Of a stretch of 50,676 bases of DNA, positions 1,418 to 37,760 are shown piece after piece. The stretch lies in assembly GCA_002839495.1 (NCBI GenBank), contig PGYD01000004.1, positions 1 to 50,676 on the forward strand. Direction: 5' to 3'. The stretch's first letter is position 1. Each line of letters opens with the position of its first letter. The position numbers and the translations under genes are program-made. This DNA comes from Planctomycetes bacterium HGW-Planctomycetes-1. GTDB lineage: Bacteria > Planctomycetota > Phycisphaerae > Sedimentisphaerales > UBA12454. The notes beneath the pieces were generated by a model. That model saw only the letters and a list, made by a program, of their open reading frames with translations, made no database searches and was not told the origin of the DNA.

Positions 1418-1966
1418 TTATTCGGATTCCGGCACACTATTTACGTCCAGCGACTGTTCCGACGAGAGTTTAATCTCTCCGCCAAGGACTTCGAGTATCT
1501 TGAGCAGAGTTTGCAATTGCGCCTTGTCGGCCTGGCGAATCTCGTCGCGAAAGCCGAGTATATCGGTTTTCCAGTTGTTCAGCTCGATTCGCATCTGGAT
1601 TAAGAGGTCGTTTGACTCATCGAGTTCTTTCGTCGCCTGCTGCAATTTCGGTTCAAGAACCGCTATATGGTCCTTAAGCCGGGCATTTTCGAGGACGAGT
1701 TCCTGATTTTTTTTCTGCAATTGGGTCATTCTCTCAGAAAGCTCCGCGTACTCCTGCGCCAGCTTTATTGCGGCATCAACGGCGGTTTGGCTGCCCGAGT
1801 CGGCGCCCTGAAATCTTTTCGAGACGGCGGTGTCCTGCTGACTGTCTGAATCGGATTTAAGGTCGGTTTTTGCGGATTTCTGCTGAGCCTGACAGCCTGC
1901 CAATACAAATAAAAACGCTGCCGTGAATAAAATCAGAAAAGAACTGATTTTTTTACTGGTTTCCAT
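1418..1966 (-). CDS. Coiled-coil lipoprotein of unknown function
   Basis: The 182-residue product has a lipoprotein signal with L-A-G-C at about residues 22-25, a polar linker rich in S, D, Q and K, and then a long heptad-like coiled coil (about residues 65-150) typical of proteins that span or line the periplasm. The C-terminus is acidic. It lies 22 bases upstream of the neighbouring lipoprotein gene on the same strand, so the two are probably co-transcribed. I do not recognise the family. Its place between fliA and flgM suggests a flagellar accessory role, but nothing in the protein proves that. Confidence 0.6.
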   Translation of the reverse strand: METSKKISSFLILFTAAFLFVLAGCQAQQKSAKTDLKSDSDSQQDTAVSKRFQGADSGSQTAVDAAIKLAQEYAELSERMTQLQKKNQELVLENARLKDHIAVLEPKLQQATKELDESNDLLIQMRIELNNWKTDILGFRDEIRQADKAQLQTLLKILEVLGGEIKLSSEQSLDVNSVPESE

Positions 1967-3546: not shown

Positions 3547-5679
3547 TTACACCGACGCTCCGACAAGTTCCTGCTTCTGCAAATTCATCCGGGAATCCTG
3601 CTGCAGGGATATAGTCTGTACGGGTTCTACTTCGGTTCCGAGTACGATTTCGTTATAAGCTATCACCGGCAATGCCGAAATTGTCCGTGCGAGTATCGCC
3701 GCCAGCGGCAATCGCAGTCTCGAATCGCAAAGCAAAACCGTTTTTTCAATGCCTTTGTCCATCGCCGCTTTCCATGCCTTTGCTATATTAGTGCTTATGG
3801 CCATTGTTACTTCGGTCGGCATAGCAAGATTCAGCGATTCGGCATCCTGGCGTAAATTCGAAGCCATCTGATGTTCCAGCGCCGGTTCAAACGTTATGGC
3901 CGAAATTTTACCGTTTTTGTCTTTATACTGGTCGGTAATAGTCCTGGCCAGGCGTTTGCGAACCACTTCGGTCAAAATATCGGTATTTTTAGTTTTCGAG
4001 GCGTATTCTCCGAGCGCCTCAAGAATAGCTGACAATTCACGAATCGGCACTCCGCTAGACAAAAGGTTTTTCAATACCCGCTGGAGCGTTCCGACAGGCA
4101 CAAGCTCTCCGACAACCTCGCCGACGAGTGACGGCTGAGTTTTGCGAAGCCTGTCAACGAGCTGCTGCACATCTTCACGAGTCAATAATTCGTCGGCGTG
4201 TTTTTTCAGCGTTTCAGATAAATGAGTAATAAAGACCGATTCGGGGTCGATAACGGTATATTCGCTGAGTTCCGCTTTTTCCTTGTCGTCTTGCGATATC
4301 CACAAAGCAGGCAGGCCGTAAACAGGTTCGGTGGTTTCTATGCCGGTTATTTTGGTCTGAACGGCGCCGGACTCCATAGCGAGAAACATATTCGGCTCCA
4401 ACTGCCCCTCTGCTACTGTATGGTCGAAAAGTCTGATTTCATAAGCGTTAGATTCGATGTTGATATTGTCTCTTAGACGAACCAGCGGGATAACAATGCC
4501 GAGCTGCTGGGCAAATCTTCTGCGCAAAGCGCCAATACGGTCGAAAATAGTGCTGTCTTTACGGGGGTCAACCAGTCCGATTAGTCTTACGCCGACCTGT
4601 ACGGAAATTCTGTCCATATCGAGCATTTCTTCGACCGGCTGTTTCTGAGGCTTGGTTTTTTGCGACAGTGTTTCACTTTTCTTTTCTTCGGCCTTTTCAG
4701 ATTTGGCCACTATCCTGCCCGTAACGGCAGCGCCTGCGGCCAAGATTAAAAACGGTATCGCAGGCAATCCCGGCACAATCGCCATCGCGGCGATTATAAA
4801 AGACGCCATCGTAAGCGGTTGAGATGTCCTTAAAAACTGCTTGGACAAATCCTGGCCGACGCTGCGGCTCGAGGAAATTTTCGTTACCAAAAAGCCGGCG
4901 CTGATGGAAATTATCATAGAGGGTATCTGGCTTACAAGACCGTCGCCCACTGAAAGAATAGAATATGTTTTTACTGCCGTACCGATTGTCATACCGCGTG
5001 AATAACCTATGGCGATTCCGCCGATGATATTAATGGCGGTAATTATAATGCCGGCGATGGCGTCGCCGCGAATGAATTTACTTGCACCGTCCATCGCCCC
5101 GTAAAATTCGCTTTCCTTGACAATCTTCGCCCTTCGCTCATTGGCCTGCGCCTCGGTAATAGCGCCGGCGTTAAGGTCAGCATCAATCGCCATTTGTTTG
5201 CCGGGCATAGCATCGAGTGTGAAACGCGCAGAAACTTCGCTTATTCGCTCGGCGCCTTTTGTAACCACTATAAATTGTATTATAAAAAGTATCAGGAAAA
5301 TTACCAAACCGACAACAAAACTGCCGCCGGCGACGAACTCGCCAAAAGTTTGGATAATTTTGCCGGCATTCGCCTGCAGCAAAATTAATCTCGTCGAAGC
5401 GACGTTAAGCGAAAGACGGAATAAAGTTACGAACAGAAGCATTGAAGGAAACGCCGATAAATCGAGGGCTTCTCTCGAAAACATCGTGATAATTAAAATG
5501 GCGATAGACAGCGATATACTGCACGCAAGAAGCATATCCATTATCGGCGTAGGCATATGGATTAACAGGGTGGCAAGGATGGTTACCAGACCTACGGCCA
5601 GAATAATATTGCTGTGCGAATATGCCGGCGTGTCGAGATGGCCGACCTTTAATGCACTTGTTTTACCGGAAGCTGCCAT
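3547..5679 (-). CDS. flhA: Flagellar export gate protein FlhA
   Basis: The 710-residue protein is the large gate component of the flagellar type III export apparatus. It uses proton flow to drive export and docks chaperone-substrate complexes on its cytoplasmic ring. Roughly the first 335 residues form about eight membrane helices and contain the FHIPEP family signature at about residues 140-172 (T-K-G-A-E-R-I-S-E-V-S-A-R-F-T-L-D-A-M-P-G-K). A linker is followed by the cytoplasmic domain from about 350 to the end. Length and start (ATG 5679) are normal. The gene sits 32 bases behind fliN on the same strand. Confidence 0.97.
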   Translation of the reverse strand: MAASGKTSALKVGHLDTPAYSHSNIILAVGLVTILATLLIHMPTPIMDMLLACSISLSIAILIITMFSREALDLSAFPSMLLFVTLFRLSLNVASTRLILLQANAGKIIQTFGEFVAGGSFVVGLVIFLILFIIQFIVVTKGAERISEVSARFTLDAMPGKQMAIDADLNAGAITEAQANERRAKIVKESEFYGAMDGASKFIRGDAIAGIIITAINIIGGIAIGYSRGMTIGTAVKTYSILSVGDGLVSQIPSMIISISAGFLVTKISSSRSVGQDLSKQFLRTSQPLTMASFIIAAMAIVPGLPAIPFLILAAGAAVTGRIVAKSEKAEEKKSETLSQKTKPQKQPVEEMLDMDRISVQVGVRLIGLVDPRKDSTIFDRIGALRRRFAQQLGIVIPLVRLRDNINIESNAYEIRLFDHTVAEGQLEPNMFLAMESGAVQTKITGIETTEPVYGLPALWISQDDKEKAELSEYTVIDPESVFITHLSETLKKHADELLTREDVQQLVDRLRKTQPSLVGEVVGELVPVGTLQRVLKNLLSSGVPIRELSAILEALGEYASKTKNTDILTEVVRKRLARTITDQYKDKNGKISAITFEPALEHQMASNLRQDAESLNLAMPTEVTMAISTNIAKAWKAAMDKGIEKTVLLCDSRLRLPLAAILARTISALPVIAYNEIVLGTEVEPVQTISLQQDSRMNLQKQELVGASV

Positions 5680-5711: not shown

Positions 5712-6113
5712 TTATTTCTTTCCGGCTGCCGCAGGCGGAGCCGCACCGGCGCCGAGAACTTCCTTTACTCGGACGGCAAATTTATCTTCCACTACAACTA
5801 TATTTCCGGTGGCAAATTTCGTATCCTTAAGATATAAATCTACCGGCGCATCAATCGATTTTTCGAGCTTCAATACCGAACCGGGGCCGAGCTGCAGGAA
5901 CTTCTGAATGGGTATTTCAACTTCTCCGACAACGGCCATAACAGGAACTTTCATATCCAGTAAAATATCAATGCTCGTTCCGGCGCCGGCGGCTTTGCCC
6001 TGCTGCGCCTGCGGAAATTCTACGGATTGCGCCTGCGTTTTAGCATCTTCCTGTACAGGCTGAGCCTGCTGCTGGTCGGTCTTTTCTTCTACTGCTTGTG
6101 CTGTTTCTGCCAT
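5712..6113 (-). CDS. fliN: Flagellar motor switch protein FliN
   Basis: The 133-residue protein forms the lower C-ring with FliM. A glutamine- and alanine-rich N-terminal arm (about residues 1-50) precedes the SpoA/FliN domain (about 50-125), with D-I-L-L-D-M-K-V-P-V and V-G-E-V-E-I-P-I near its start and N-I-V-V-V-E-D-K-F-A-V-R-V near its end. A short A-P-P-A-A-A-G-K-K tail closes the protein. It lies directly downstream of fliM (37-base gap). The Q/A-rich arm is longer than in minimal FliN, which is common. Confidence 0.95.
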   Translation of the reverse strand: MAETAQAVEEKTDQQQAQPVQEDAKTQAQSVEFPQAQQGKAAGAGTSIDILLDMKVPVMAVVGEVEIPIQKFLQLGPGSVLKLEKSIDAPVDLYLKDTKFATGNIVVVEDKFAVRVKEVLGAGAAPPAAAGKK

Positions 6114-6150: not shown

Positions 6151-7110
6151 TTATTTAGTATTGCATAGTTCTGTAATCATCACGGCTTGTTTATTATCGA
6201 ATTTCGCAAGCCGACCGCGAAGTGCGGACTTGCCGTTAACAAACAGTTCAACCGGTTCATTTATTTTTTTGTCGAGCAATAATATGTCGTCGGCCTGCAG
6301 ACTCATTACCTCCTCGAAATTAAACAACGCCCCGCCCAGCCGGACCATAACAGAAACCGGTACGTGTTGGAGATGGCTCATCATTGCCTTCGCGATGTTT
6401 TGAGCCGGGATATTTTCGCCGGACTGTCCTTTTTGTCCTGCGATTGCCTGCAGCCTGTCGCAGAGTATAAGGAAATATGCCTCGGAAGGCTTCTCCGAAT
6501 CGGCTTTTTTGACGCTGAAAGAGATTTTACAAATTTCATCAGCCGGTTCGATTTCAATGGGCATCTGTCCTTTAACAATCTCGCCGGACGGACGTAAATC
6601 ATCTTTATCGAAGGAACCGGAAACGGCCTCAATAATACCGGATGCTATATCAAACAGCAGAGACTGTTCGAGCGACGACAAATCTCTGTCGGCATTTTCA
6701 GCGGATTTGCTGTCGCCGAGCAATTGTGCAGCCCACAGAACTGCCGTCTGGCTCGGCATACCAATCAGACCGAACTGGTGTTTTTCAGTACCGAAATCCA
6801 GATAATACTCGTTCTTTTTATCTTCGGAAGCTGTAAATTCGCAGGCAAAATGCTGTGTATTAGAAATAATTTCCGCCTTGAACTTGCTATTGTAAAGCTG
6901 AGTGAATTTTTTGGCGATATTTTGTGCCGCTTTTCCCGCAAAATCATTGACTTTTTTCAACTGCTCCTGCGAAAAGTAATGAGACTGCCGCCAATTGTAT
7001 TCGACCGCTTCTACATTCCGGTCTGCCTCTTCCTGAGGCTTAGCACCGATAGAGGCGAGAAGCTGCTGTATTCTTTCACTGCTTAAACTGTTATTTTCCA
7101 TATCGCTCAT
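6151..7110 (-). CDS. fliM: Flagellar motor switch protein FliM
   Basis: The 319-residue protein belongs to the C-ring, where phosphorylated CheY binds its N-terminus in chemotactic species. The N-terminal helix L-S-S-E-R-I-Q-Q-L-L (about residues 9-18) corresponds to the usual L-S-Q-x-E-I-D-x-L-L CheY-binding segment, though it lacks the central acidic pair. The middle CheC-like domain is about 35-225, and the SpoA domain fills the C-terminal 85 residues (V-S-V-M-V-R-L-G). Its ATG overlaps the fliL stop in ATGA, so translation is probably coupled. Confidence 0.92.
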   Translation of the reverse strand: MSDMENNSLSSERIQQLLASIGAKPQEEADRNVEAVEYNWRQSHYFSQEQLKKVNDFAGKAAQNIAKKFTQLYNSKFKAEIISNTQHFACEFTASEDKKNEYYLDFGTEKHQFGLIGMPSQTAVLWAAQLLGDSKSAENADRDLSSLEQSLLFDIASGIIEAVSGSFDKDDLRPSGEIVKGQMPIEIEPADEICKISFSVKKADSEKPSEAYFLILCDRLQAIAGQKGQSGENIPAQNIAKAMMSHLQHVPVSVMVRLGGALFNFEEVMSLQADDILLLDKKINEPVELFVNGKSALRGRLAKFDNKQAVMITELCNTK

Positions 7111-7709
7111 TGTATGTTAAATTCCCTGATAAGAATTCTCTTGATTTGCGGCTTGGCACCGGGAAAAAGAATCTCATTAAAAGCATCGCATATTTGCGAC
7201 AGAATGCGCTGTATATCTTTATCGTTCTGCATTTGGCCAAGCGTCAGACTCTTAAAATAAAGATTAAGCCAGTTTATCAAAAGGGGTTTTTGGGCTAAAA
7301 TAATCTCCGAAGCTTTCATCCCTGTTAATTCGGAACTTATCTCCAAAGTCAAGCCTACCCTTACATAGCGGGTCGCACCCGGCTCATCAGGATTTACCAC
7401 AACGGACTCCAAATCGTTATAATACCATGTATTAGTATTGGATTTTTGTGTATCGTCGCCTACAGTCTTTTTTTCTGTTCTTGCGTCTTGCTGCGCCTCT
7501 TCCTGCATAGATTCCTCCGCTTGAGCCTGAGCCGGGCCGGCAAACAACCGGCCGAGCATAAAGCCTGAACCTGCAAAAAGAACCACAACAACTGCCATTA
7601 TCGCCCACGTCAGGATGCTGATTTTAGATCCTGCCTGCTGCGGCTTTCCTTCTTTTTCGGTTTTTACCGCTTCTTTTGTATCTTTTGGTTTTTTATCTGT
7701 ATCTGCCAT
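7107..7709 (-). CDS. fliL: Flagellar basal-body-associated protein FliL
   Basis: The 200-residue protein has a lysine-rich cytoplasmic start, one membrane helix at about residues 33-52 and a periplasmic domain (about 95-200) with R-Y-V-R-V-G-L-T-L-E-I, typical of FliL. FliL forms rings around stator units and raises motor output. A glutamate- and glutamine-rich stretch (residues 62-85) links helix and domain. It starts 27 bases downstream of the sigma-54 activator gene and overlaps fliM by 4 bases. Confidence 0.92.
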   Translation of the reverse strand: MADTDKKPKDTKEAVKTEKEGKPQQAGSKISILTWAIMAVVVVLFAGSGFMLGRLFAGPAQAQAEESMQEEAQQDARTEKKTVGDDTQKSNTNTWYYNDLESVVVNPDEPGATRYVRVGLTLEISSELTGMKASEIILAQKPLLINWLNLYFKSLTLGQMQNDKDIQRILSQICDAFNEILFPGAKPQIKRILIREFNIQ

Positions 7710-7736: not shown

Positions 7737-9221
7737 TTATACTGCCAACTGCAATTCATCTTTCCGGTTATAACGGCGAATCTTGCTCCGCAAGGTTCGG
7801 TCGCTGATGCCTAATATCTTTGCGGCTTTTGTCTGGTTGCCGCCTGTATTGTCCAGCGTATCCAAAATCACTTGCCGTTCTACCTGTTCAAGGGGCATTC
7901 CCGACAGCTCGGACAATGATGTCTGGCCGTTACTGACTGACAGGGTATTTTCCTGCGAGCGAGGCTGCAGCTCGTCAAAGAGCCAGGAAACATCGGCTAA
8001 AGACAATTTTGAGCCTGTTCCGAGAATTAACGATGTCAGCACGACATTTCGCAATTGCCGAACATTGCCGGGCCAATGATATTTCGCGAAAATATTCATC
8101 ATCGCAGGGTCGAGCTCTGTTATTTGACGCTGAGCCTGCCGTACATAAAGATTTACAAAATGCCAAACAAGGTCGGGCAAATCTTCGCACCGCTGTCTCA
8201 GTGGTGCAATGACCAGCCTTACGCCGCACAGCCGATAGTAAAGGTCCTGACGAAATCTGCCTTCGGCGACTTCCGGCAGCAGGTCTTTATTGGTAGTGCT
8301 TATTATTCTAACATCGACTCGAACGGTCTCATTTCCGCCGACGCGTTCGAAATCCTGCTGTTCGAGCACTCTAAGCAGTTTCGCCTGAAATTTCAGAGGT
8401 GTTTCCGTAATCTCATCAAGGAGCAAAGTTCCGCCGTGAGCCATCTCGAACCGTCCTTTGCGCTGGGCATAAGCGCCGGTAAAAGCGCCCTTTTCGTGTC
8501 CGAAAAGTTCGCTTTCGAGCAGCGAATCTGTCAATGCGGCACAATTAACCCTTACATAAGGTCCCTGTGCTCTTCTGCTGTAACGATGAACAAGATACGA
8601 AATAAGCTCTTTGCCGGTTCCGCTTTCGCCGCCGATTAAAACCGGAGCAGAAGTGGGAGCTACTCTTTTGGCCAAGTTAACGGCTTGAGTTAATTTTGCA
8701 CTTTTCCCTACTATCGTGAAAAGGGACTGATTGCCGTCGTGGTCGAAACCGGCTGTTGAAACGCGGTGATTCGGCAGCAAACTATCCAGTAAATTTTCGA
8801 TTTTTTTACAGTCGAGCGGCTTAACAAAAAAACCGCCGCAGCCGAGATTGACGGCTTTTACGGCCGCGTCAAGCAACTGCTGCTGATTTTGAATCTGCTG
8901 ATTTTCGGTATCGCATACCATAATCACCGGCATCTCCGGTGAATTTACTTTAATCTCACGAATTAGCCGAAAATCGTCCTCGAATTGATTTATTCGGGTA
9001 ATATTAAATATAAGGGCATAATTATTCTCGTTGATTAAATCGACAATGCCTCTTTTGTTATCCACAACAGTTCCACTGACGCCTTTACGAGCCAAAATTT
9101 CGAGTATAAATCGGGTCGATTCCTTTTCATTGCCGATTACAAGTACATTCGCAGACGGGCCGCCGCAAATTTGTTCTTTTTTATGAATCGCGTCCAAATT
9201 GTCTATTACGTTTTTGTTCAC
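7737..9221 (-). CDS. Sigma-54-dependent activator with degenerate receiver (FleQ/FlrC-type)
   Basis: The 494-residue protein is an enhancer-binding ATPase for sigma-54 promoters. The receiver-like domain (about 24-148) lacks the phosphoacceptor: I-F-N73-I replaces the usual Asp, and the acidic pair is also missing, although Lys134 in V-K-P is kept. The AAA+ domain (about 168-400) has Walker A G-E-S-G-T-G-K (198-204), an intact GAFTGA loop (245-250) and Walker B G-T-L-L-L-D-E. A Fis-type helix-turn-helix is at about 460-487. It starts at GTG 9221 with an AAAGGA ribosome site slightly far upstream. It lies inside the flagellar run, which suggests it activates flagellar sigma-54 promoters without phosphorylation. 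Confidence 0.93.
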   Translation of the reverse strand: MNKNVIDNLDAIHKKEQICGGPSANVLVIGNEKESTRFILEILARKGVSGTVVDNKRGIVDLINENNYALIFNITRINQFEDDFRLIREIKVNSPEMPVIMVCDTENQQIQNQQQLLDAAVKAVNLGCGGFFVKPLDCKKIENLLDSLLPNHRVSTAGFDHDGNQSLFTIVGKSAKLTQAVNLAKRVAPTSAPVLIGGESGTGKELISYLVHRYSRRAQGPYVRVNCAALTDSLLESELFGHEKGAFTGAYAQRKGRFEMAHGGTLLLDEITETPLKFQAKLLRVLEQQDFERVGGNETVRVDVRIISTTNKDLLPEVAEGRFRQDLYYRLCGVRLVIAPLRQRCEDLPDLVWHFVNLYVRQAQRQITELDPAMMNIFAKYHWPGNVRQLRNVVLTSLILGTGSKLSLADVSWLFDELQPRSQENTLSVSNGQTSLSELSGMPLEQVERQVILDTLDNTGGNQTKAAKILGISDRTLRSKIRRYNRKDELQLAV

Positions 9222-9244: not shown

Positions 9245-10219
9245 CTAAAGGCTCGGAGTTTTATACTGTTCGAGCAGCACGTTAGGCTCGTCTTTAATAT
9301 ACCAATCGATTAAATTGACTTTCGCTTTGGCCGAATCCGTCCATAGCGAATTGGGATATCCCATAATCAATTGTTTATACATCTGCAGCGCAGCGGGCGG
9401 GTCGTCCTTTTGCAGACAATTGCCTATTTGAAATAAAATCCACGCTTTATCCTCGGAAATGCTATTGGCATCTGCCGACATCTGTTCCAGAGCATCCCTA
9501 TAACACTTTACAGCTTCTTTTAGTTGGCCGCCTCTGAATAAAACCTCGGCCAGTTCGAGAGGACTTCTTATCTGTTGGGACTGCAGGGAAACCTGTTCAA
9601 ACAATTCTATAGTCTTTCTCGTTATTTGTTTTTTCGGCAGGGGTTTTTCATCCTGCTGTCCCCTGTCGAGCAATTCCTGCGGTGTGATTGCCGATTTCTC
9701 GTATTCGGTTCTTTGCAGCAAGTTTTGACTGGACAAAGACTCTTCCGGTTTGTCCTTTTCAGTCGGCTCTACAACAATAACAGGCGGCGAGACCTGCTGA
9801 TGCGATCTGAATTCGACAGAATTGATTTGCTGAATCAATTCCTGAAGCTCATCCCTGTCATTAGCAGATTTGTCATCCCTGATAAGGCTGACTCCGGCCT
9901 GCCATAATTGACGAATCGCGGCCGATGCAGTACCAACGGCTGAGCCTAAATCAGGTGATTTTGCAGCACTGCCATCGGCAGCCAAATTTGCGACTATATT
10001 GCTGATAAGCTCTTTCTGCCCCCCAACTAATGAACGTTTGTCGAACCGGATATCCGCTATATTTACGTCTTCTAAATCCTTCAGTAAAGACATTTCGAGA
10101 ATATCCATCGGGTCGGTATCTGCCGATGCAATCCCTGCATATACGAAAGAGGTAAACATACAAATAACCAAACCCCAAATCAGGCCGTCGTTTAACTGTC
10201 TCGAAATTTTATTTTTCAT
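9245..10219 (-). CDS. Exported TPR-like protein of unknown function
   Basis: The product is 324 residues if it starts at ATG 10219, just after the upstream stop; another in-frame ATG at 10231 overlaps that stop. It begins with a hydrophobic segment and a plausible signal peptidase site (A-S-A-D, about residues 32-33), followed by a long polar region. The C-terminal part (about 220-310) contains TPR-like helix pairs such as A-E-V-L-F-R-G-G-Q-L-K-E-A and Q-I-G-N-C-L-Q-K-D-D-P-P-A-A-L-Q-M-Y, resembling BamD/YbgF-type repeats. It follows the 858-residue TPR gene with no gap, so the two are probably partners. The function is unknown. Confidence 0.65.
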   Translation of the reverse strand: MKNKISRQLNDGLIWGLVICMFTSFVYAGIASADTDPMDILEMSLLKDLEDVNIADIRFDKRSLVGGQKELISNIVANLAADGSAAKSPDLGSAVGTASAAIRQLWQAGVSLIRDDKSANDRDELQELIQQINSVEFRSHQQVSPPVIVVEPTEKDKPEESLSSQNLLQRTEYEKSAITPQELLDRGQQDEKPLPKKQITRKTIELFEQVSLQSQQIRSPLELAEVLFRGGQLKEAVKCYRDALEQMSADANSISEDKAWILFQIGNCLQKDDPPAALQMYKQLIMGYPNSLWTDSAKAKVNLIDWYIKDEPNVLLEQYKTPSL

Positions 10220-10221
10220 CG

Positions 10222-12798
10222 CTATTTCCATTGTCCTAAAAGGGCCAATACCGCTTTGTCATAATTTTTCTTTTGGTTATAGGCCGCAGCCAAAAGTTCC
10301 AGCGTTTTTTGTTTTATTTGTTCCGGCGGCTGTAAATCCAAAAGCTGCATACATATAGACACGGTTTGCGAACTCCGTTCGAGCGTCAGGCAAACATCTG
10401 CCAGCCTGACCGTTGCCTCATACATCAAAGGTCCGGGCTTGGCCTGTGTAAGAATTTCGGTAAGCTTTCTGTATGCGAACTCTAAATCTCCTTTTTCGAT
10501 ATAGCATTCACACAGTTGGAACTCTATTTCCGCTTTTAGTTGCGAATCTATAATATATTCAGCTCTATCGCCGAGTATCGCAATAGCTTTATCCGTCAAA
10601 CCCATCGTTCTGAGTACCCTGCTTTTGAGCAGCAGTATCTCGACAGATTCTTTCCGGGATAATGTCAGCGATTCAGCGTTTTCCAATAAATTAAGGGCCT
10701 GTACGAGATAGCCCTGCTGCATATATATCTCGACCGAGGCGGGAATATGCTCGATAAACTCCTCTTTGCTTAATCGCGACGGCACACCCGCAAAGGCATA
10801 CTGAAAAGCGTTATACGACGCTTCCGGATTTTCCAAAGCAGCATAAATTTTGCCCAATAGCAGATAAGCCGAATATAAGTCTTTATTCTGACGGTCATTT
10901 GTCTGTCCGATACATTGAGACAGCCACTTTTCTGCCGATACGTAGTCTCCCAAACGATAGGAACATTCTCCTGCTCCGAGAGCGGCGGCAAGTTTCGATT
11001 TTTCAGACAGACCAAGATTATAAACCCTGCTGTAGAGCCTTAGAGCTTCGTTCGTCAGATTCGCTTTAGCGGCGGTATCCGCATAAGACAGATAAGCTTC
11101 ATTTGCGACTTTCGTATCGGGAAATTGCTCGATAAGCTGTTTCAAATCATTATAACCGCCGGCATAGTCCCGCAGATTATTTTTTACTTTGCTCGAATTC
11201 AGCAGAGCATACGGCGCCAACGGTGATTTTATAAATTGATTAGCTATCAATTTGTATTCCGCCATCGACTCGGTGGGCTGATTTTTAGATGCGTATAACA
11301 GTCCCAAAGCAAAATGGACATTCGCAAGACGACTATCCTGAGGAAATTTAAGCAAAAATTCCTGCCACAGTGAAACCGCCTGATTACTTAGGATAAAGAT
11401 ATGTTCGGAAACATAAGAGTATTTAGAGGGATTTAAAATATTTAATACGTTTTTGTCGTCCATTTGCGCCAGCAGACCCGCACAGCCGGCCGCTACTGCT
11501 GTAAATTGCTGTTTCGTCGCCGATAAAAGATTCAAATAAACAAGCTGTTTGCGAATTCCATCTTCATTTGCATAAGATTCCCAATACATATCAATACCCG
11601 CATTGGCGGCAAATCTATTCAGCAGCTCTTCTATCGACGCACCGCTGCAGATAATATCATAGCGTGCCTGCTCGCCTTGATGCTCAAATCGCTGAATTTG
11701 AGGACTGAGAGCGGCAAGGCTTAATTGCTGCGAGCCCGAATTCAGGAAAGTTCGCAGGCTTGTTTCATCAAGATTGGCAAAAAGTTCGTCTGCCCGGCTG
11801 AAATCGCCCCACAAATCTTCGGGAGTATCTTTGTCGGCATCACAAAGCGACAAAACTTCTCTTGTCAGCGCCTCGGCGGCAAGAAAATAACAATCACGTT
11901 TTATTGACGCCGACCAGTTTTCGTCAAAATCTACCGCATCAATCAGAGCTATAGCCTGATAAGCCTTGGCTCGTGCGTTTAAATACTGTTTCTTTCGTAT
12001 TTCGAGTAAACCGTAATTATAGCCTGCAACTACTCTTACAGCAGGAGAGCCGCTGTTCAAGACGCCTCTGATTATGTTCGCCGCCTCGTCATAATCGGCG
12101 ATTTTTACAAGACACAAGGCCTTCTGTAATTGAAATAAATCCCTCATCGCGTCTTCGCTTTGAGTCATCGGCAGGCTTTTATACAATCTGTCATAAGCAT
12201 TTACAGCCTCGGCATAGTCGCCCTTGAGATATAAGGCTTGCCCAGCCTGCAATGATATTGGCTGTATGGAATCAATTTCAGGCGCGGGCTGTGATTTGCT
12301 GACTTGCTGTACTGCTGCTGCGGGGGGCGTTTCAGCAACAGGCCGGGCGGAATATACTGTTTGGCCGGCAGAGTCGGACGGCTCATCGGAAACAGGCATA
12401 AATGTAAATAATTCATACAGCAATACACAAGCTGTTAGAAAGATAGCAGCGGCAAGAATTTTCTGGGTAATGGAAAATCGGCTGACTCTCGCCGGCGCTG
12501 TAAACGGACGCTCTAAATTAGGAGATTGCGGCTGGACAGGAGTATGGGTATCTTCGAGGGATTTATAAAGACTTTCATTTCCGGCAAAAAGCTCCTGAGT
12601 TGATAATTGCTGATGAACAGGACCTGTGAATATTTCGTTATTGGGCATTGATTCTGCGGAATGGGTCGGCTGAGAACCAGACTGCCCTGCCTGAGATTCT
12701 GTATGTTTTCTCGTCATAGCAACACGAATGCCTTTGAGTCTTTCGTGCCACATACGACCCAGATGCCCTAAATCATTTTTTTTGTTCTCTTCTGTCAT
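10222..12798 (-). CDS. Large membrane-anchored TPR protein, first gene of a sigma-54 operon
   Basis: The 858-residue protein has a basic, polar cytoplasmic region (1-107), one membrane helix at about 111-131, a short linker and then about 650 residues of TPR-like helix pairs (for example A-L-Y-L-K-G-D-Y-A-E-A-V-N-A-Y-D-R-L-Y). The repeats therefore probably lie in the periplasm. It is the first gene after a very good sigma-54 promoter (12873-12888), and the switch, export and fliA genes follow. TPR scaffolds often assemble or stabilise large complexes, so a basal-body or motor scaffold is a reasonable guess, but I do not recognise a named flagellar family. Confidence 0.7.
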   Translation of the reverse strand: MTEENKKNDLGHLGRMWHERLKGIRVAMTRKHTESQAGQSGSQPTHSAESMPNNEIFTGPVHQQLSTQELFAGNESLYKSLEDTHTPVQPQSPNLERPFTAPARVSRFSITQKILAAAIFLTACVLLYELFTFMPVSDEPSDSAGQTVYSARPVAETPPAAAVQQVSKSQPAPEIDSIQPISLQAGQALYLKGDYAEAVNAYDRLYKSLPMTQSEDAMRDLFQLQKALCLVKIADYDEAANIIRGVLNSGSPAVRVVAGYNYGLLEIRKKQYLNARAKAYQAIALIDAVDFDENWSASIKRDCYFLAAEALTREVLSLCDADKDTPEDLWGDFSRADELFANLDETSLRTFLNSGSQQLSLAALSPQIQRFEHQGEQARYDIICSGASIEELLNRFAANAGIDMYWESYANEDGIRKQLVYLNLLSATKQQFTAVAAGCAGLLAQMDDKNVLNILNPSKYSYVSEHIFILSNQAVSLWQEFLLKFPQDSRLANVHFALGLLYASKNQPTESMAEYKLIANQFIKSPLAPYALLNSSKVKNNLRDYAGGYNDLKQLIEQFPDTKVANEAYLSYADTAAKANLTNEALRLYSRVYNLGLSEKSKLAAALGAGECSYRLGDYVSAEKWLSQCIGQTNDRQNKDLYSAYLLLGKIYAALENPEASYNAFQYAFAGVPSRLSKEEFIEHIPASVEIYMQQGYLVQALNLLENAESLTLSRKESVEILLLKSRVLRTMGLTDKAIAILGDRAEYIIDSQLKAEIEFQLCECYIEKGDLEFAYRKLTEILTQAKPGPLMYEATVRLADVCLTLERSSQTVSICMQLLDLQPPEQIKQKTLELLAAAYNQKKNYDKAVLALLGQWK

Positions 12799-12872: not shown

Positions 12873-12888
12873 AGCAATACCTGTGCCA
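12873..12888 (-). promoter_or_regulatory. Sigma-54 promoter of the TPR/fliL/fliM/flhA/fliA run
   Basis: On the minus strand the sequence is TGGCACAGGTATTGCT. It has the invariant GG and GC with 10 bases between them and matches the TGGCAC-N5-TTGCT consensus throughout. The predicted start is 12862, giving a 64-base leader before the ATG at 12798. Confidence 0.85.
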
Positions 12889-17504: not shown

Positions 17505-18803
17505 ATGATAACTCGTTTAGCTGAAATAACCATAAGAACAGGCATTCTGGCATTAACTCCGGTTCAGCGCTGGAGTGCCGCCAGAAAATTTAACAGCGGC
17601 AGCTTTATGAGCGAACGCTGGTTTTTCCATATCAACGCTGCCGCTATTGTAATACTGACTACAATTCTTTTGGTGGTTACTATCAAGAGAATCCTTCGGG
17701 AGCGGAAAAACAGCGAGAGATTGTTTAACGAATATGCCGAAAACAGAGGTCTTACATATTCGGAAAGCCAAACCCTTCTTACGGTTGCCCGTCAAGCGCG
17801 AATAAAACAAAAAGAATCTATTTTTACACTGGCGGCTTCTTTTGATATCGGAGCCGCACAAATGGTTAAAAAACTGGTGGCTAATCACGCTGTAAAAGAA
17901 AGCCAGCACTTAGAAACCGTTCTGTCGTCCCTCCGTGAAAAACTCGGATTCAAAAAAGAAGCTTCATACTCACGAGGCTCAATCGCAAAGTCTGAAAGGC
18001 TAAGCAGCAGGCAAATCCCTGTCGGCAAAGAAGTTAGCGTCAGACGTCCAAATCAAAAAGATTCAGAGGCTATCGAGGCAACCGTCGTAAAAAACAACGA
18101 TTTCGAGCTGGCGATACTATTATCAGAGCCGGTAACGATTACTTTCGGAGATTTTTGGAATATCCGTTATTACTCCGGCGCTTCAATCTGGGAATTCGAA
18201 TCTTACGTTGTCAGTTATGACGGCAATACGATGGTTCTGAATCACAACGATGAAGTTCGGTTCATTAATCGCCGGCGTTTTCTGCGTACACCCGTACAAA
18301 AACCGGCTTTTATCGCCATTTTTCCGTTCGAAAAAAAACTTATATGGACATTCGAAGGCGCACCGGGAAGCACCCCCGATGATTCTGAGGAAATTAGTCT
18401 CCAACCCCTTCAGTTTGTACCCGCATTAGTAACAGAATTAGGCGGGCCGGGCCTGCGAATCGAGGCTCCGATAGAAGTCCAGTCGGGAGACAGAGTCCTG
18501 ATAATGTTCGAATTAGACAGGAAAAAAGAACAAAAGCTAATCAAAAATCCGGAAACTGAAGAAGTTACTGAAATCACTACCACCACGATGAAAGTGGTGG
18601 AAGACATCGGAATAGTAGAAGAAATAGGTGAAGTCAAGCGAACAGAAGATGCACAGGGAAAACTTTCGATAGCAGTCGAACTGAAAGGTTTGCAGGACTC
18701 GGACATCGATTGTTTGATTCGAGCTACCAATATTGCTTCGCTTAATGAAAATAAAAACGTATTAAATGCCGAAGGACAATCTCCGGCACAAATAGGTGTT
18801 TAA
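17505..18803 (+). CDS. Membrane protein with YcgR/PilZ-like domain
   Basis: The 432-residue product has one membrane helix at about 41-60, a coiled region (65-150), then a YcgR-N-like beta region (about 172-250) and a PilZ-like domain (about 255-425). The PilZ arginine motif is present as R-R-F-L-R (257-261). The second motif, usually D/N-x-S-x-x-G, reads E-L-G-G-P-G (311-316), so c-di-GMP binding may be weakened or lost. It lies between flgE and flgF in the hook operon, so a role as a motor brake or assembly sensor is a reasonable inference. A start at Met35 (17607) is also possible. Confidence 0.6.
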   Translation: MITRLAEITIRTGILALTPVQRWSAARKFNSGSFMSERWFFHINAAAIVILTTILLVVTIKRILRERKNSERLFNEYAENRGLTYSESQTLLTVARQARIKQKESIFTLAASFDIGAAQMVKKLVANHAVKESQHLETVLSSLREKLGFKKEASYSRGSIAKSERLSSRQIPVGKEVSVRRPNQKDSEAIEATVVKNNDFELAILLSEPVTITFGDFWNIRYYSGASIWEFESYVVSYDGNTMVLNHNDEVRFINRRRFLRTPVQKPAFIAIFPFEKKLIWTFEGAPGSTPDDSEEISLQPLQFVPALVTELGGPGLRIEAPIEVQSGDRVLIMFELDRKKEQKLIKNPETEEVTEITTTTMKVVEDIGIVEEIGEVKRTEDAQGKLSIAVELKGLQDSDIDCLIRATNIASLNENKNVLNAEGQSPAQIGV

Positions 18804-27234: not shown

Positions 27235-27759
27235 GTGACTATTAAAACGAAACTGAAAAGAAAACGAAAAAACACAAAGAACCTGTCAACCGCATCCAAA
27301 GACTACCAAAAAGCTCTGGACTTAGCCGAAGCCGGCAAGCACAATGAAGCTCTGAAGTATATTCAAAAATATCTTCGTTCATCGCCAAACAATGCAGAGG
27401 CGATGAACGACGCCGGGGCAATTCTGCATTGTATGAATCGCTCCGATGAGGCCGCCAAACATCTCGTAAAAGCAAGAATCCTGCAGCCCGACTCGGCGGA
27501 AATCATCTGGAATCTGTCCGAAACTTATCTTGCCGCCGGCAACGCCGAACAGGCAATGGAGCTTTTCGACGATATGGAACAAATGGGCATTTTAAACGCG
27601 GAGGTGCTTAACAGAACCGCTGAAATGCTGATAGATGCAGGCAAATTATCCGATGCCGTCAAAATGCTGAATCGGTCATTAAAACTTTCGCCGGATCAGA
27701 AAATTCTTAAGCCAATGATTGAAATAATCCACGGCAAAATGCCGGAGAATAAAATATAA
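27235..27759 (+). CDS. TPR protein in hook-filament gene cluster
   Basis: The 174-residue soluble protein starts at GTG 27235, with AAAGGA 11 bases upstream. After a basic N-terminus it contains about four TPR-like helix pairs (A-L-D-L-A-E-A-G-K-H-N-E-A-L-K-Y-I, A-G-A-I-L-H-C-M-N-R-S-D-E-A, A-G-N-A-E-Q-A-M-E-L-F). It has no signal. It lies between flgL and fliD, where export chaperones are expected, so binding of export substrates is a possible role. No named family is recognised. Confidence 0.65.
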   Translation: MTIKTKLKRKRKNTKNLSTASKDYQKALDLAEAGKHNEALKYIQKYLRSSPNNAEAMNDAGAILHCMNRSDEAAKHLVKARILQPDSAEIIWNLSETYLAAGNAEQAMELFDDMEQMGILNAEVLNRTAEMLIDAGKLSDAVKMLNRSLKLSPDQKILKPMIEIIHGKMPENKI

Positions 27760-27794
27760 ACGCAAAACAAACACCAAAAGGACACCCGGCAGAT

Positions 27795-28424
27795 ATGAAT
27801 AAAAAAAATAAAGATGTCATCGAGCAGGAAACTGATAGCAAAAAATATCAGGAAATGCAAAAATTAGGAGATTCCTATACCGCGCTCGGCGATTATAATC
27901 AGGCTCAAAAATGCTATGAAAAAGCCGCCTCCTTAAACCCCGATGAAGCGGACCCTTATGTCGGGCTCGGCATAATCGACTTTCAACAGGACCTTTTAGA
28001 CAACGCGGAAATCGCATTTAGGGTTGCTTGCCGGCTTGACCCAAATAGCTCGCGTGCTTACGCAGGTCTGGCTATGGTTGCACAGAAAAAAGGCGACTAC
28101 GATAAGGCTTTCGAAATGTATCTTAAATGTCTGGAGCTGAACACAGATAATCTAAACGTTCTTTTGGGACTGTTTCAAATCTCCTGCAAAATGGGGTCTT
28201 TTGGAAAAATTATTCATTATCTTCAGGTATATCTCGATATGCACCCGCAGGACAGCTCGGTTATGTTCTCTTTGGCGGCGCTGTATGTTAAAGAAGGCCG
28301 TCTCGAACAAGCCAAAAAACTGCTCGGAGATATTTTAACCTTAGACCGCGAAAATACAGATGCCGCAAATCTTCTCGAAGAGGTCAACCACTGTCTGGCA
28401 CAAAAACAGCAGGCAGGAGTTTAA
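27795..28424 (+). CDS. Second TPR protein in hook-filament gene cluster
   Basis: The 209-residue soluble protein has about five clear TPRs from residue 20 to 195 (A-L-G-D-Y-N-Q-A-Q-K-C-Y-E-K-A, K-K-G-D-Y-D-K-A-F-E-M-Y, K-E-G-R-L-E-Q-A-K-K-L-L-G-D-I-L). It follows the shorter TPR gene by 35 bases, and the two look like diverged paralogues. The canonical alanine and glycine positions are well kept. Its role is unknown. Its place beside the FliT-like gene suggests a cytoplasmic export or assembly helper. Confidence 0.68.
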   Translation: MNKKNKDVIEQETDSKKYQEMQKLGDSYTALGDYNQAQKCYEKAASLNPDEADPYVGLGIIDFQQDLLDNAEIAFRVACRLDPNSSRAYAGLAMVAQKKGDYDKAFEMYLKCLELNTDNLNVLLGLFQISCKMGSFGKIIHYLQVYLDMHPQDSSVMFSLAALYVKEGRLEQAKKLLGDILTLDRENTDAANLLEEVNHCLAQKQQAGV

Positions 28425-34863: not shown

Positions 34864-35592
34864 CTAATTTTCTCTAAGAACCGCGATTAGTATCTGCGAC
34901 TGTTCCGACATCGGAGCATCGCTTGCAACCCAGCAGCCTCCCGGCCCTGCTCCCCAGGAATAAACGGCGTTTCGGAGATGCTGCGGCAGGGTTTGTTTGA
35001 GAAAATCCGCAACCGCTCCGGCCCGCATAGCCGACAATGTCCATTGTTTTTTTTCAGTATGTTCGTCGCGGGCAAGACCAAGTACATAAAGTTTAATCTT
35101 TCCCGACTTGGCATCCTGCGGCAAATTCATAGCAAACTGAGTCAGAAATTTCTTCGCCGACTCGTTCAACTGCGCCTCGCCCGGTAAAAAACTGATACCC
35201 GTAACCGAAAAATCGGCCTTTTTTCCAACTATTTGAGAACGCGCCGTTTCCATAGAATGGTGGATTTTTTGGAAAATTCGTCGAAGGTTCTCTTCTCTTG
35301 CATCTATGGTTCTGACAACAAGGTCTTCATTTTCATTGCTTATGCAGTATTTGATTTTCACTTCGCTGAAATCCGGCGTCATTTTTTTGCCGAAAAGCAT
35401 ACCAAGCCCCATAGTATTTATATGCCGTACAAATGAGTCACGGCCGACATTAAACTTTTCAGGGTCCTGCATCTTCGCAAGCGATATAAGCAACACAAAA
35501 AATGTCAGCAGCAGCGTTACCATATCCGAAAAGGTAACGATATAAGCCGGCACTGATGGCGAAGTGCTCTGTGATACAGATTTGCGGCTCAA
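34864..35592 (-). CDS. motB: Second MotB-like stator protein
   Basis: The 242-residue protein has a short polar N-terminus, one membrane helix with the proton-carrying Asp at residue 23 (V-T-F-S-D-M-V-T-L-L-L-T-F-F), and a periplasmic OmpA-like domain (about 120-240) with L-S-A-M-R-A-G-A-V-A-D-F-L. The terminal arginine signature of peptidoglycan-binding domains (N-R-R-V-E-I) is replaced by S-Q-I-L-I-A-V. Its start overlaps the first motB gene by ATGA. Two motB genes behind one motA suggest a mixed MotB dimer or two alternative stators. Confidence 0.85.
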   Translation of the reverse strand: MSRKSVSQSTSPSVPAYIVTFSDMVTLLLTFFVLLISLAKMQDPEKFNVGRDSFVRHINTMGLGMLFGKKMTPDFSEVKIKYCISNENEDLVVRTIDAREENLRRIFQKIHHSMETARSQIVGKKADFSVTGISFLPGEAQLNESAKKFLTQFAMNLPQDAKSGKIKLYVLGLARDEHTEKKQWTLSAMRAGAVADFLKQTLPQHLRNAVYSWGAGPGGCWVASDAPMSEQSQILIAVLREN

Positions 35593-36302
35593 TTATAAAT
35601 ACTCCTTTCGAGCAAAACAATTTCGAGCATACGCTCGGCCTTGGCATCCTCTATATCCTGCATTCGGTCATTTGCCGGTTCTGTATCAATTTCTGTCTTT
35701 GTTGTGCTTGCCGCTGCAATGCTGAACTGCTGTTTGTTGAGAGGCTGCTTTTTTGCCATATATTCCATAACAGCCCAGCTGCGGTTTAGCCCCAGATGCT
35801 TGTTTTTCGCATCGTCCTGGCTGTTTTCGCTTATAACTATTCTGGCAGCGGGCATTTCCCTTAAAAATGACGCCATCACAGCAAGGATTTCCCGTCCTTC
35901 GAGTGAAATAAGCGCTCCTTTGCCGTAGAAAATTTTATCAGATGAGATTAAAAATATTTTTCGATTGCGGAAGTCCGTAGGTTCCGTGTCTTTTACAAGA
36001 TTTTCTTGGGTACCTCTTTCGAGGGTCGGTTTTTCACTGCCTTTTTCAAGAGTTACATCGGTTTCCTGAACCGTCTCGGTTGGCACTAATGCGTCTTTTT
36101 CAATGGCGTTTTTTTCAAAGAAAGAAAACTGTTTCTCAAAAATCCTTCTCCACATAAGAACGGCTTTATCATCAAACGATGAAAAGCTGAGCATAAGCAC
36201 AAAAAATGTCAGCAGCAGCGTCATACAATCGCTGAACGTTACCATCCATTCCGGCGCCCCAGGCTCGCTTTCGGCTTCGGCTTGTTTCTTTCTTCGCCCC
36301 AT
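35589..36302 (-). CDS. motB: First MotB-like stator protein
   Basis: The 237-residue protein has the MotB membrane helix with Asp25 (V-T-F-S-D-C-M-T-L-L-L-T-F-F) and a periplasmic OmpA-like domain (about 110-235). That domain is diverged: the usual G-H-T-D is replaced by S-E-N-S-Q-D-D, although L-N-R-S-W-A-V-M-E-Y-M remains. The C-terminus ends M-L-E-I-V-L-L. It directly follows motA (TAAATG junction). Its periplasmic half differs strongly from that of the second motB, so this is not a recent duplication. Confidence 0.85.
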   Translation of the reverse strand: MGRRKKQAEAESEPGAPEWMVTFSDCMTLLLTFFVLMLSFSSFDDKAVLMWRRIFEKQFSFFEKNAIEKDALVPTETVQETDVTLEKGSEKPTLERGTQENLVKDTEPTDFRNRKIFLISSDKIFYGKGALISLEGREILAVMASFLREMPAARIVISENSQDDAKNKHLGLNRSWAVMEYMAKKQPLNKQQFSIAAASTTKTEIDTEPANDRMQDIEDAKAERMLEIVLLERSIYN

Positions 36303-37076: not shown

Positions 37077-37760
37077 TTACTCTTTTTCCATTATTTGTTT
37101 TAATCTCTGACTAAACTCCGCTGATACCGAAGGTTCCGTCTCGGCAACAGAAGCCAATACCTTGGCTTTGGTTCTATCGGACATATAATAAAGAATTTTC
37201 ACAGCATCATTATTTTTGGTCTGGTTCATAGTCGATAATATCTTGCCCGCCTGAGCCGCATCCATCTTGTCATAAGTGGCCGCTATCGATGCGAGATTAT
37301 TCCTTTCGATATTGGAAATCTCGATTCTGCTCTTTTGCAGTTTATCCTGCTCGCTCTTAATGGTGGAAATCGTCGAAGCAAGTTCAATTCGCAGATTGTC
37401 CATCTCCTGTATGTCTTTTTTCAACATTTCCTGTGTTGTTTGCAGTTTTTGCTCCCGCGATGAAAGTTCCTGCAGCTTGTTGTCGTATTCTCTAATCTTC
37501 TCGCGGACTTCGTAAATAATCTCTTTGAGCTGTTTTTCCGTCATAGCCGTTTTTATTCTGCCCTCGGCTGCGCCGCCGATGCCCGCCAGCATTTGAGTCT
37601 GCATCAGTTTAAGGCTGTCATCTTCAGCCGATGTTGTCTGCCCTGCGGCGGCCTGCTGAGTATCCGATACTGTTTTTTTGGTAAGTAAACCAAATACGAA
37701 CATCCCCGCAAAACTTATTAGTCCGGCCGCTGCTATCATTATTATCAATTTTTTATTCAC
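37077..37760 (-). CDS. MotE-like membrane coiled-coil protein
   Basis: The 227-residue protein has an N-terminal membrane helix (about residues 5-25), a long coiled coil (about 75-150) and a C-terminal helical domain (about 155-225) of the MgtE-N/FliG-middle type (Y-D-K-M-D-A-A-Q-A-G-K-I-L). This layout is that of MotE/FliJ-adjacent proteins that assist MotB or the stator in other bacteria. It starts at GTG 37760 with AGGAG 7 bases ahead. It lies between fliJ and motA, which fits a stator-related role. Confidence 0.7.
   Translation of the reverse strand: MNKKLIIMIAAAGLISFAGMFVFGLLTKKTVSDTQQAAAGQTTSAEDDSLKLMQTQMLAGIGGAAEGRIKTAMTEKQLKEIIYEVREKIREYDNKLQELSSREQKLQTTQEMLKKDIQEMDNLRIELASTISTIKSEQDKLQKSRIEISNIERNNLASIAATYDKMDAAQAGKILSTMNQTKNNDAVKILYYMSDRTKAKVLASVAETEPSVSAEFSQRLKQIMEKE

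Follow-up and report, generated by a model that had tools for sequence, protein, structure and literature searches.

The locus analysed here raises the question of what two tetratricopeptide repeat (TPR) proteins do at the head of a flagellar operon of Planctomycetes bacterium HGW-Planctomycetes-1. The stretch studied (hereafter the window) comprises 50,676 nucleotides, positions 1 to 50,676 of the forward strand of contig PGYD01000004.1 (assembly GCA_002839495.1), and belongs to a Sedimentisphaerales (Planctomycetota) metagenome-assembled genome (MAG), a draft of 1.83 Mb with close sequence relatives among MAGs of Sedimentisphaerales, Phycisphaerae or Planctomycetota. The first gene of the operon (10222-12798, minus strand) encodes a protein of 858 amino acids, TPR858, and the second (9245-10231, minus strand) an exported protein of 328 amino acids, TPR328. 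By analogy with known motors, we consider, with a probability of about 0.62, that both are structural accessory proteins, forming a flagellar motor scaffold comparable in role to PflA/PflB, MotC/MotK and FlcA/B.

Gene order and sigma-54 promoter

TPR858 and TPR328 open a block of minus-strand genes which continues with an NtrC-type, FleR-like activator (7737-9221; Sigma54_activat, 5.9e-68), fliL (7107-7709; PF03748, 1.1e-12), fliM (6151-7110), fliN (5712-6113), flhA (3547-5679; PF00771 (FHIPEP), 4.4e-245) and a gene for a FliA-type sigma factor. The FliM is divergent, and the PF02154 core model had no match in the genome itself; its SpoA/FliMN_C domain (PF01052, 1.4e-16) and its position among the switch genes are clear. 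FliN was assigned by its sequence and its place in the conserved gene order. A preliminary description of the locus had placed an 858-residue membrane-anchored TPR protein and an exported TPR-like protein directly ahead of the activator and fliL, with which the open reading frames (ORFs), the Pfam matches and the hydropathy agree. The ORFs of TPR858 and TPR328 overlap by 10 bases, 23 bases separate TPR328 from the activator and the first joints of the block measure 0-30 bases. Given that the genes are so closely spaced, TPR858, TPR328 and the downstream flagellar genes are probably co-transcribed.

The order TPR858-TPR328-NtrC2-FliL-FliM-FliN-FlhA(-FliA) is kept in nearly all of 42 loci, where contigs reach; in family f4 of the same taxonomic order, FliM is mostly canonical instead of divergent. 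Downstream of the gene for the FliA-type sigma factor, two lipoprotein-like genes of unknown family (766-1395 and 1418-1966, minus strand) close the operon, and they are retained at the same place in most related loci.

About 75 bases upstream of the TPR858 start codon lies an exact sigma-54 -24/-12 consensus element, TGGCACAGGTATTGCT (12873-12888, minus strand). A scan of the window alone for TGGCACN5TTGCW with up to two mismatches showed no enrichment, so a single match could be due to chance. The element was then sought upstream of the TPR858 homologues in 40 testable loci, being found with a score of 11/11 in 35 of them and 10/11 in 4, and shuffled upstream sequences reached an equal score in 0-2%. 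Only one tested locus, the distant L094, lacked it. Since perfect or near-perfect copies recur in 39/40 homologous loci, the element must be regarded as real, and the sigma-54 operon of switch and export genes proposed previously holds, with fliL, fliM, fliN, flhA and fliA downstream of a conserved promoter.

Presence and loss with the flagellum

The distribution of both genes was determined across 59 genomes belonging to the same order, using FlhA as the flagellum marker, given that FliM (PF02154) is too divergent in this lineage to be usable. FlhA was present in 46 genomes (33 outside family f4 and 13 within it). TPR858 and TPR328 occurred in an identical set of 34 of the 59 genomes, namely in all 33 FlhA-positive genomes outside f4 and in 1 of the 13 FlhA-negative ones, that genome being 78% complete; a few weak TPR-only matches to TPR858 in further genomes were left out of these counts. 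In the genus of the window, three genomes (G003, G004 and G006) have neither flagellum nor pair, and three others (G001, G002 and G005) have both, as does the genome of the window itself. Joint losses were also observed in families f1, f3, f6 and f7, and this recurrence in several families means that the link between the pair and the flagellum is not the result of one inherited event. Co-occurrence in related genomes, which had been put forward as a check, is thus strongly favourable, the pair being kept and lost with the flagellum and the operon order conserved.

No close copy of the pair was detected in the 13 FlhA-positive genomes of family f4. That this family lacks such a TPR protein altogether was considered and rejected, as in the f4 clusters examined a membrane-anchored TPR protein of 818-821 amino acids precedes FleS, FleR, flgB, flgC and fliF; its putative orthology is supported by its position and by weak scores.

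Domain organisation of TPR858 and TPR328

The AlphaFold2 model of TPR858 (mean predicted local distance difference test, pLDDT, 80.8; predicted template modelling score, pTM, 0.65) consists, in this order, of a disordered tail, a helix at residues 110-132, a disordered linker, a TPR block, an alpha/beta domain and a TPR superhelix, all encoded on the minus strand. The helix (12403-12471) is the predicted single transmembrane segment; its hydropathy peak, residues 114-132, is the sole strong hydrophobic segment of the protein and is present in 24 of the 25 rows of alignment A1, the remaining row beginning at a contig edge. The N-terminal TPR block (residues 183-318, 11845-12252) was modelled as helices with pLDDT of ~90 and matched TPR_16 and TPR_7, while the C-terminal superhelix (residues 463-853, 10240-11412) was delimited by AlphaFold2 and VIA-align. 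The Pfam matches of the whole protein included TPR_16 (3.6e-8) and TPR_19 (6e-8).

Naming the two proteins by Pfam and NCBIfam was unsuccessful, as only generic TPR families were obtained, with YbgF, PorW, BamD and MamA below threshold; the match of TPR858 to tol_pal_ybgF (NCBIfam, 9e-19) scored 68.2 bits, under the cut-off of 90.1, and was restricted to TPR segments. Sequence searches of the PDB (phmmer and profile) gave no relatives beyond TPRs among the matches listed. Assignment to a family by fold was also abandoned, the Foldseek and VIA-align lists being dominated by unrelated TPR proteins. VIA-align matched TPR858 to the TPR folds of OGT, LGN and YbgF with Z up to ~19.8 and to no flagellar protein among the matches listed, which is not taken as exclusion.

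N0/STN domains are parts of secretins and outer-membrane receptors, and the alpha/beta domain of TPR858 (residues 365-455, 11434-11706) is putatively of this type. Its sole match in Pfam was TcpQ (0.0012). The split Brocadiales-like homologues described below matched GspD_N0 (4.5e-5) and STN (0.0012), in both cases below gathering (14.9-23.7 bits vs. 27-28.4). When a profile of the domain was compared with the PDB, the five best matches all fell in the N0/N1 regions of PilQ or HofQ (E 0.0066-0.9), the top three being PilQ (0.0066), HofQ (0.028) and PilQ (0.061). Together with the modelled order of strands and helices, which is comparable to that of the secretins PilQ, HofQ and GspD, these weak but consistent matches agree with a secretin N0/STN-like domain, although they do not make a strong case. 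TPR858 differs from the secretins in having no pore domain and in that its N0-like domain is embedded between TPR arrays.

TPR328 carries a signal-peptide-like segment at residues 17-35 and a C-terminal TPR block at residues 205-324 (TPR_12, 8.7e-9). Its AlphaFold2 model is confident for residues 201-320 only (pLDDT 78-98), and the middle of the protein is of low confidence. From these features, TPR328 would be a soluble periplasmic partner of TPR858, which in turn is most simply read as an inner-membrane protein whose N-terminus faces the cytoplasm and whose C-terminal bulk lies in the periplasm.

The disordered tail of TPR858 contains a tandem motif at residues 55-73 (12580-12636), EIFTG and ELFAG, 14 residues apart. 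When counted as [EDQ]-[LVIM]-F-[AGVST]-[GSD] in 54 non-identical homologous tails, it appeared in 69 copies vs. 0.6 expected (shuffle maximum 4), a figure that overstates the surprise as the motif class was defined after viewing the alignment; the 14-residue spacing lies outside the pattern and was exact in 23 of 24 cases. At least one copy was present in 45/54 tails and at least two in 23/54, bearing in mind that the tails are kin and the counts not independent. The fact that a disordered tail keeps this motif, in general form [ED]-x-F-A-G, amid flanking residues that are mostly variable, suggests a putative docking site. It would be cytoplasmic provided that the N-terminus of the helix is inside, an orientation implied by the export of the C-terminal half. 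The motif may also resemble the FliM N-terminal LSxxEI. The periplasmic location given in the preliminary description therefore fits the bulk of TPR858 and is incomplete with respect to the conserved cytoplasmic tail motif and the secretin N0/STN-like domain.

Distant relatives in other Planctomycetota

A profile search of 294 genomes of the phylum with A1 yielded mostly generic TPR matches, and only those lying in flagellar clusters were used. Strong partial matches (E to 4e-47), mostly within ~20-26 kb of FlhA, were obtained in family f52, which is probably Brocadiales-like. In this family the protein is divided over two genes, one with a transmembrane segment and TPRs (242-341 amino acids) and the other with a signal peptide, N0/STN and TPRs (~600 amino acids), after which come a small TPR gene and then FleS, FleR, flgB, flgC, fliF, fliG, fliI, FlgY, FliM and FlhA. 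In profile-profile comparison, A1 positions 354-833 aligned to the split C-terminal half with 99.9% probability; given that a mismatched TPR-TPR pair also scores 96%, position was weighed together with the score. Since this split half bears a signal peptide, it provides independent support for a periplasmic C-terminal half of TPR858.

A large TPR gene was present upstream of flgB-flgC-fliF in 24 of 36 fliF regions sampled from varied planctomycete families, and no such gene was found upstream of fliF in the other 12. In L094, a distant Planctomycetota MAG, the fused form and a small TPR gene stand beside an NtrC gene, fliF, fliG, fliI, FlgY and motA. As judged from homology and gene position, many Planctomycetota have distant and partly split relatives of these proteins beside FleS-FleR-flgBC-fliEF, making this flagellar module an old one.

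E-ring candidate and other flagellar genes of the window

Between fliJ and motA, the window encodes an E-ring candidate similar to FlbB/FlgY/MotE (37077-37760, minus strand; NCBIfam collar_FlbB, 0.0027). Syntenic Brocadiales-like genes matched the same model with 5e-14 and 8e-11; the match is under the curated cut-off both for the window protein (0.0027) and for the Brocadiales-like gene (5e-14). In L094 and L099, a counterpart likewise lies between FliI and MotA. Behind a single motA there are two differing tandem motB genes (34864-35592 and 35589-36302, minus strand) with a 4-base overlap, which suggests a stator with two types of MotB.

Three further regions of the window are worth recording. 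Two short TPR proteins encoded between flgL and fliD (27235-28424, plus strand) matched SycD/LcrH type III chaperones weakly and are possible filament or cap chaperones. The TPR protein adjoining flagellin (45900-47759, minus strand), as read from its sequence, resembles enzymes of the O-GlcNAc-transferase type and might be a flagellin glycosyltransferase. Finally, flgE and flgF have between them, in nearly all related loci, the gene of a conserved 432-amino-acid protein of unknown family (17505-18803, plus strand).

Proposed role and alternatives

In the role that we propose, TPR858 would be anchored in the inner membrane and expose to the periplasm a TPR block, the N0/STN-like domain and the long TPR superhelix, to which the soluble TPR328 would bind. 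Together they would build a ring, rim or spokes round the basal body, linking the E-ring protein and FliL to the stator of MotA and two MotB, and this scaffold would keep the stator units in position, in the manner of PflA/PflB in Campylobacter. The pair would be transcribed from the sigma-54 promoter together with FliL, the switch genes and FlhA, and therefore would assemble early, alongside the rotor and the export gate. The tandem tail motif may dock TPR858 on a cytoplasmic partner such as the rotor, FlhA or MotA.

Several points weigh against this role. No sequence match of TPR858 or TPR328 to the Pfl or Flc families appeared among the matches listed in the NCBIfam and PDB searches, in line with the earlier statement that the two proteins are not recognisable as known flagellar parts. 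TPR folds are generic, so that fold likeness is not evidence of role: in Foldseek, chain 9hmf_K of the Campylobacter scaffold comes only at rank 36 (template modelling score 0.18), behind many eukaryotic TPR proteins. For these organisms, the literature searched contained neither mutants nor interaction data nor images of the motor and, in its open-access part, no study of planctomycete flagellar motor structure. In addition, the FleS-FleR neighbourhood found outside Sedimentisphaerales suggests that a regulatory or checkpoint role would also suit.

In this last regard, the pair could be an assembly checkpoint, a membrane-spanning sensor that reports rotor or rod assembly to FleS-FleR/NtrC, controlling the later sigma-54 flagellar genes. 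The TPR genes directly precede a FleS-like kinase and a FleR-like activator in many Planctomycetota outside Sedimentisphaerales, and TPR858 spans the membrane and bears a conserved cytoplasmic motif. We nevertheless hold this to be unlikely, as neither the 42 loci nor the window showed a FleS-like kinase and yet the pair is kept; moreover, the canonical phospho-acceptor Asp is missing from the activator of the window (7737-9221), being replaced in all aligned Sedimentisphaerales-type loci and kept only in L094. It must be considered that there are other kinases elsewhere in the genome, and that roughly one locus in three has an Asp at the next residue. Even so, the persistence of the pair where the kinase gene and the canonical Asp are gone weakens a purely kinase-linked role, and most of TPR858 is a long predicted periplasmic superhelix, as in structural scaffolds.

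The N0/STN-like domain and the best PDB matches to PilQ/HofQ N0/N1 could instead indicate that the pair serves the passage of the flagellum through the wall or outer membrane (rod, P/L-ring, peptidoglycan), with the domain docking there and outside any stator scaffold; the closest named TPR relatives also include YbgF/CpoB and BamD, both of which act in the envelope. However, the pair keeps company with fliL and the genes for switch and export, or else with flgBC-fliEF and FlgY-motA, and not with flgH/flgI, and domains of the PilQ type are described for PflA, MotK and PflD in stator scaffolds too (PMC11870540, PMC13023049), which makes this explanation quite unlikely. That the pair are non-flagellar envelope proteins leading the operon by happenstance is hardly credible: TPR proteins are abundant in Planctomycetota and many weak TPR-only profile matches are unrelated to flagella, but the pair is present and lost jointly with FlhA in 59 genomes, its promoter and order are conserved, and its distant homologues still lie within flagellar clusters of other classes.

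Returning to the motor scaffold, a more specific form of it can be advanced only tentatively. It would be a phylum-old Planctomycetota structure, independent of PflAB, with a single protein spanning the inner membrane and coupling, via the tandem [ED]-x-F-A-G docking motif, the cytoplasmic rotor or export side to a periplasmic ring composed of TPR superhelices together with an N0 domain of secretin origin; such a motor structure is seen in no tomogram that we found.

Comparison with known motor scaffolds

Flagellar motors are known to contain scaffold proteins built of TPRs, a class that includes PflA/PflB, FlcA/B and MotC/MotK (PMC12222027, PMC11870540, PMC13023049). In Campylobacter, PflA spokes and the PflB rim recruit FliL and the stators (PMC12222027), PflB being a transmembrane and TPR protein with a middle beta element (PMC11870540), and the TPR proteins that partner E-ring proteins include MotC/MotK and FlcB (PMC13023049). 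AMIN or N1 domains derived from PilQ are described in PflA and PflD, and an AMIN domain in MotK; such scaffolds occur near FlgY and FliL (PMC12222027, PMC11870540, PMC13023049). The sequence of PflA/B is not conserved, and a large survey, in whose main text Planctomycetota do not appear, reported that roughly one in two flagellated species has TPR proteins encoded next to flagellar genes, counting them as possible relatives of PflA/PflB (PMC11870540). TPR858 agrees with this class in being a large TPR protein that is encoded in a flagellar cluster and co-occurs with flagella. The scaffold suggested in the preliminary description as new thus fits in topology, fold and co-occurrence, while its kind was already known.

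PflB is one of the closest known counterparts and shares with TPR858 a length of ~820-860 amino acids, an N-terminal cytoplasmic stretch, one transmembrane segment, a TPR block and a second TPR block reaching the C-terminus, as well as a beta element near residue 370-390 with TPR arrays on either side. Its gene also lies among flagellar genes, and FliL is a partner of PflB and a neighbour of TPR858. The differences are that the beta element of PflB consists of two 5-residue strands whereas TPR858 has a whole alpha/beta domain, that the C-terminal hook-and-loop beta pair is missing from the TPR858 model, in which residues 854-858 are coil, and that a tandem cytoplasmic motif is not described for PflB in the available text of the structural papers (PMC12222027, PMC11870540). 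As far as the model goes, and by the criteria of Feng et al. (2025), TPR858 does not belong to the PflB family with respect to the C-terminal beta pair.

PflA and MotC/MotK resemble TPR328 as exported TPR proteins adjoining E-ring proteins of the FlgY/MotE type. However, in PflA and MotK the TPRs are joined to AMIN, while the TPR block of TPR328 is short and an AMIN domain was not detected in it; the secretin-like piece is here the N0/STN-like domain and is sited in the membrane-anchored partner. The spirochete FlcA/FlcB/FlbB collar likewise combines TPR collar proteins with FlbB, and a candidate FlbB-like protein is encoded in the cluster of the window, but no Flc model of NCBIfam was matched by TPR858 or TPR328 at E<=1 and the context of the periplasmic flagellum differs. 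YbgF/CpoB and BamD, from the Tol-Pal and BAM systems, are the closest named sequence relatives of part of TPR858, although only of TPR segments and without the architecture in which a transmembrane helix, TPRs, STN and TPRs follow each other.

In attention to the above, what is not described in the available parts of the literature found is the order of transmembrane helix, TPR, N0 and TPR, the split form, the tail motif, which would be a feature new to the known scaffolds, and the placement throughout the phylum. The pair provides gene candidates for accessory motor structures across the whole of Planctomycetota, and would be a further case for the idea that flagellar motors have repeatedly recruited TPR arrays and type IV pilus secretin pieces, the secretin piece being here N0/STN in place of AMIN or N1.

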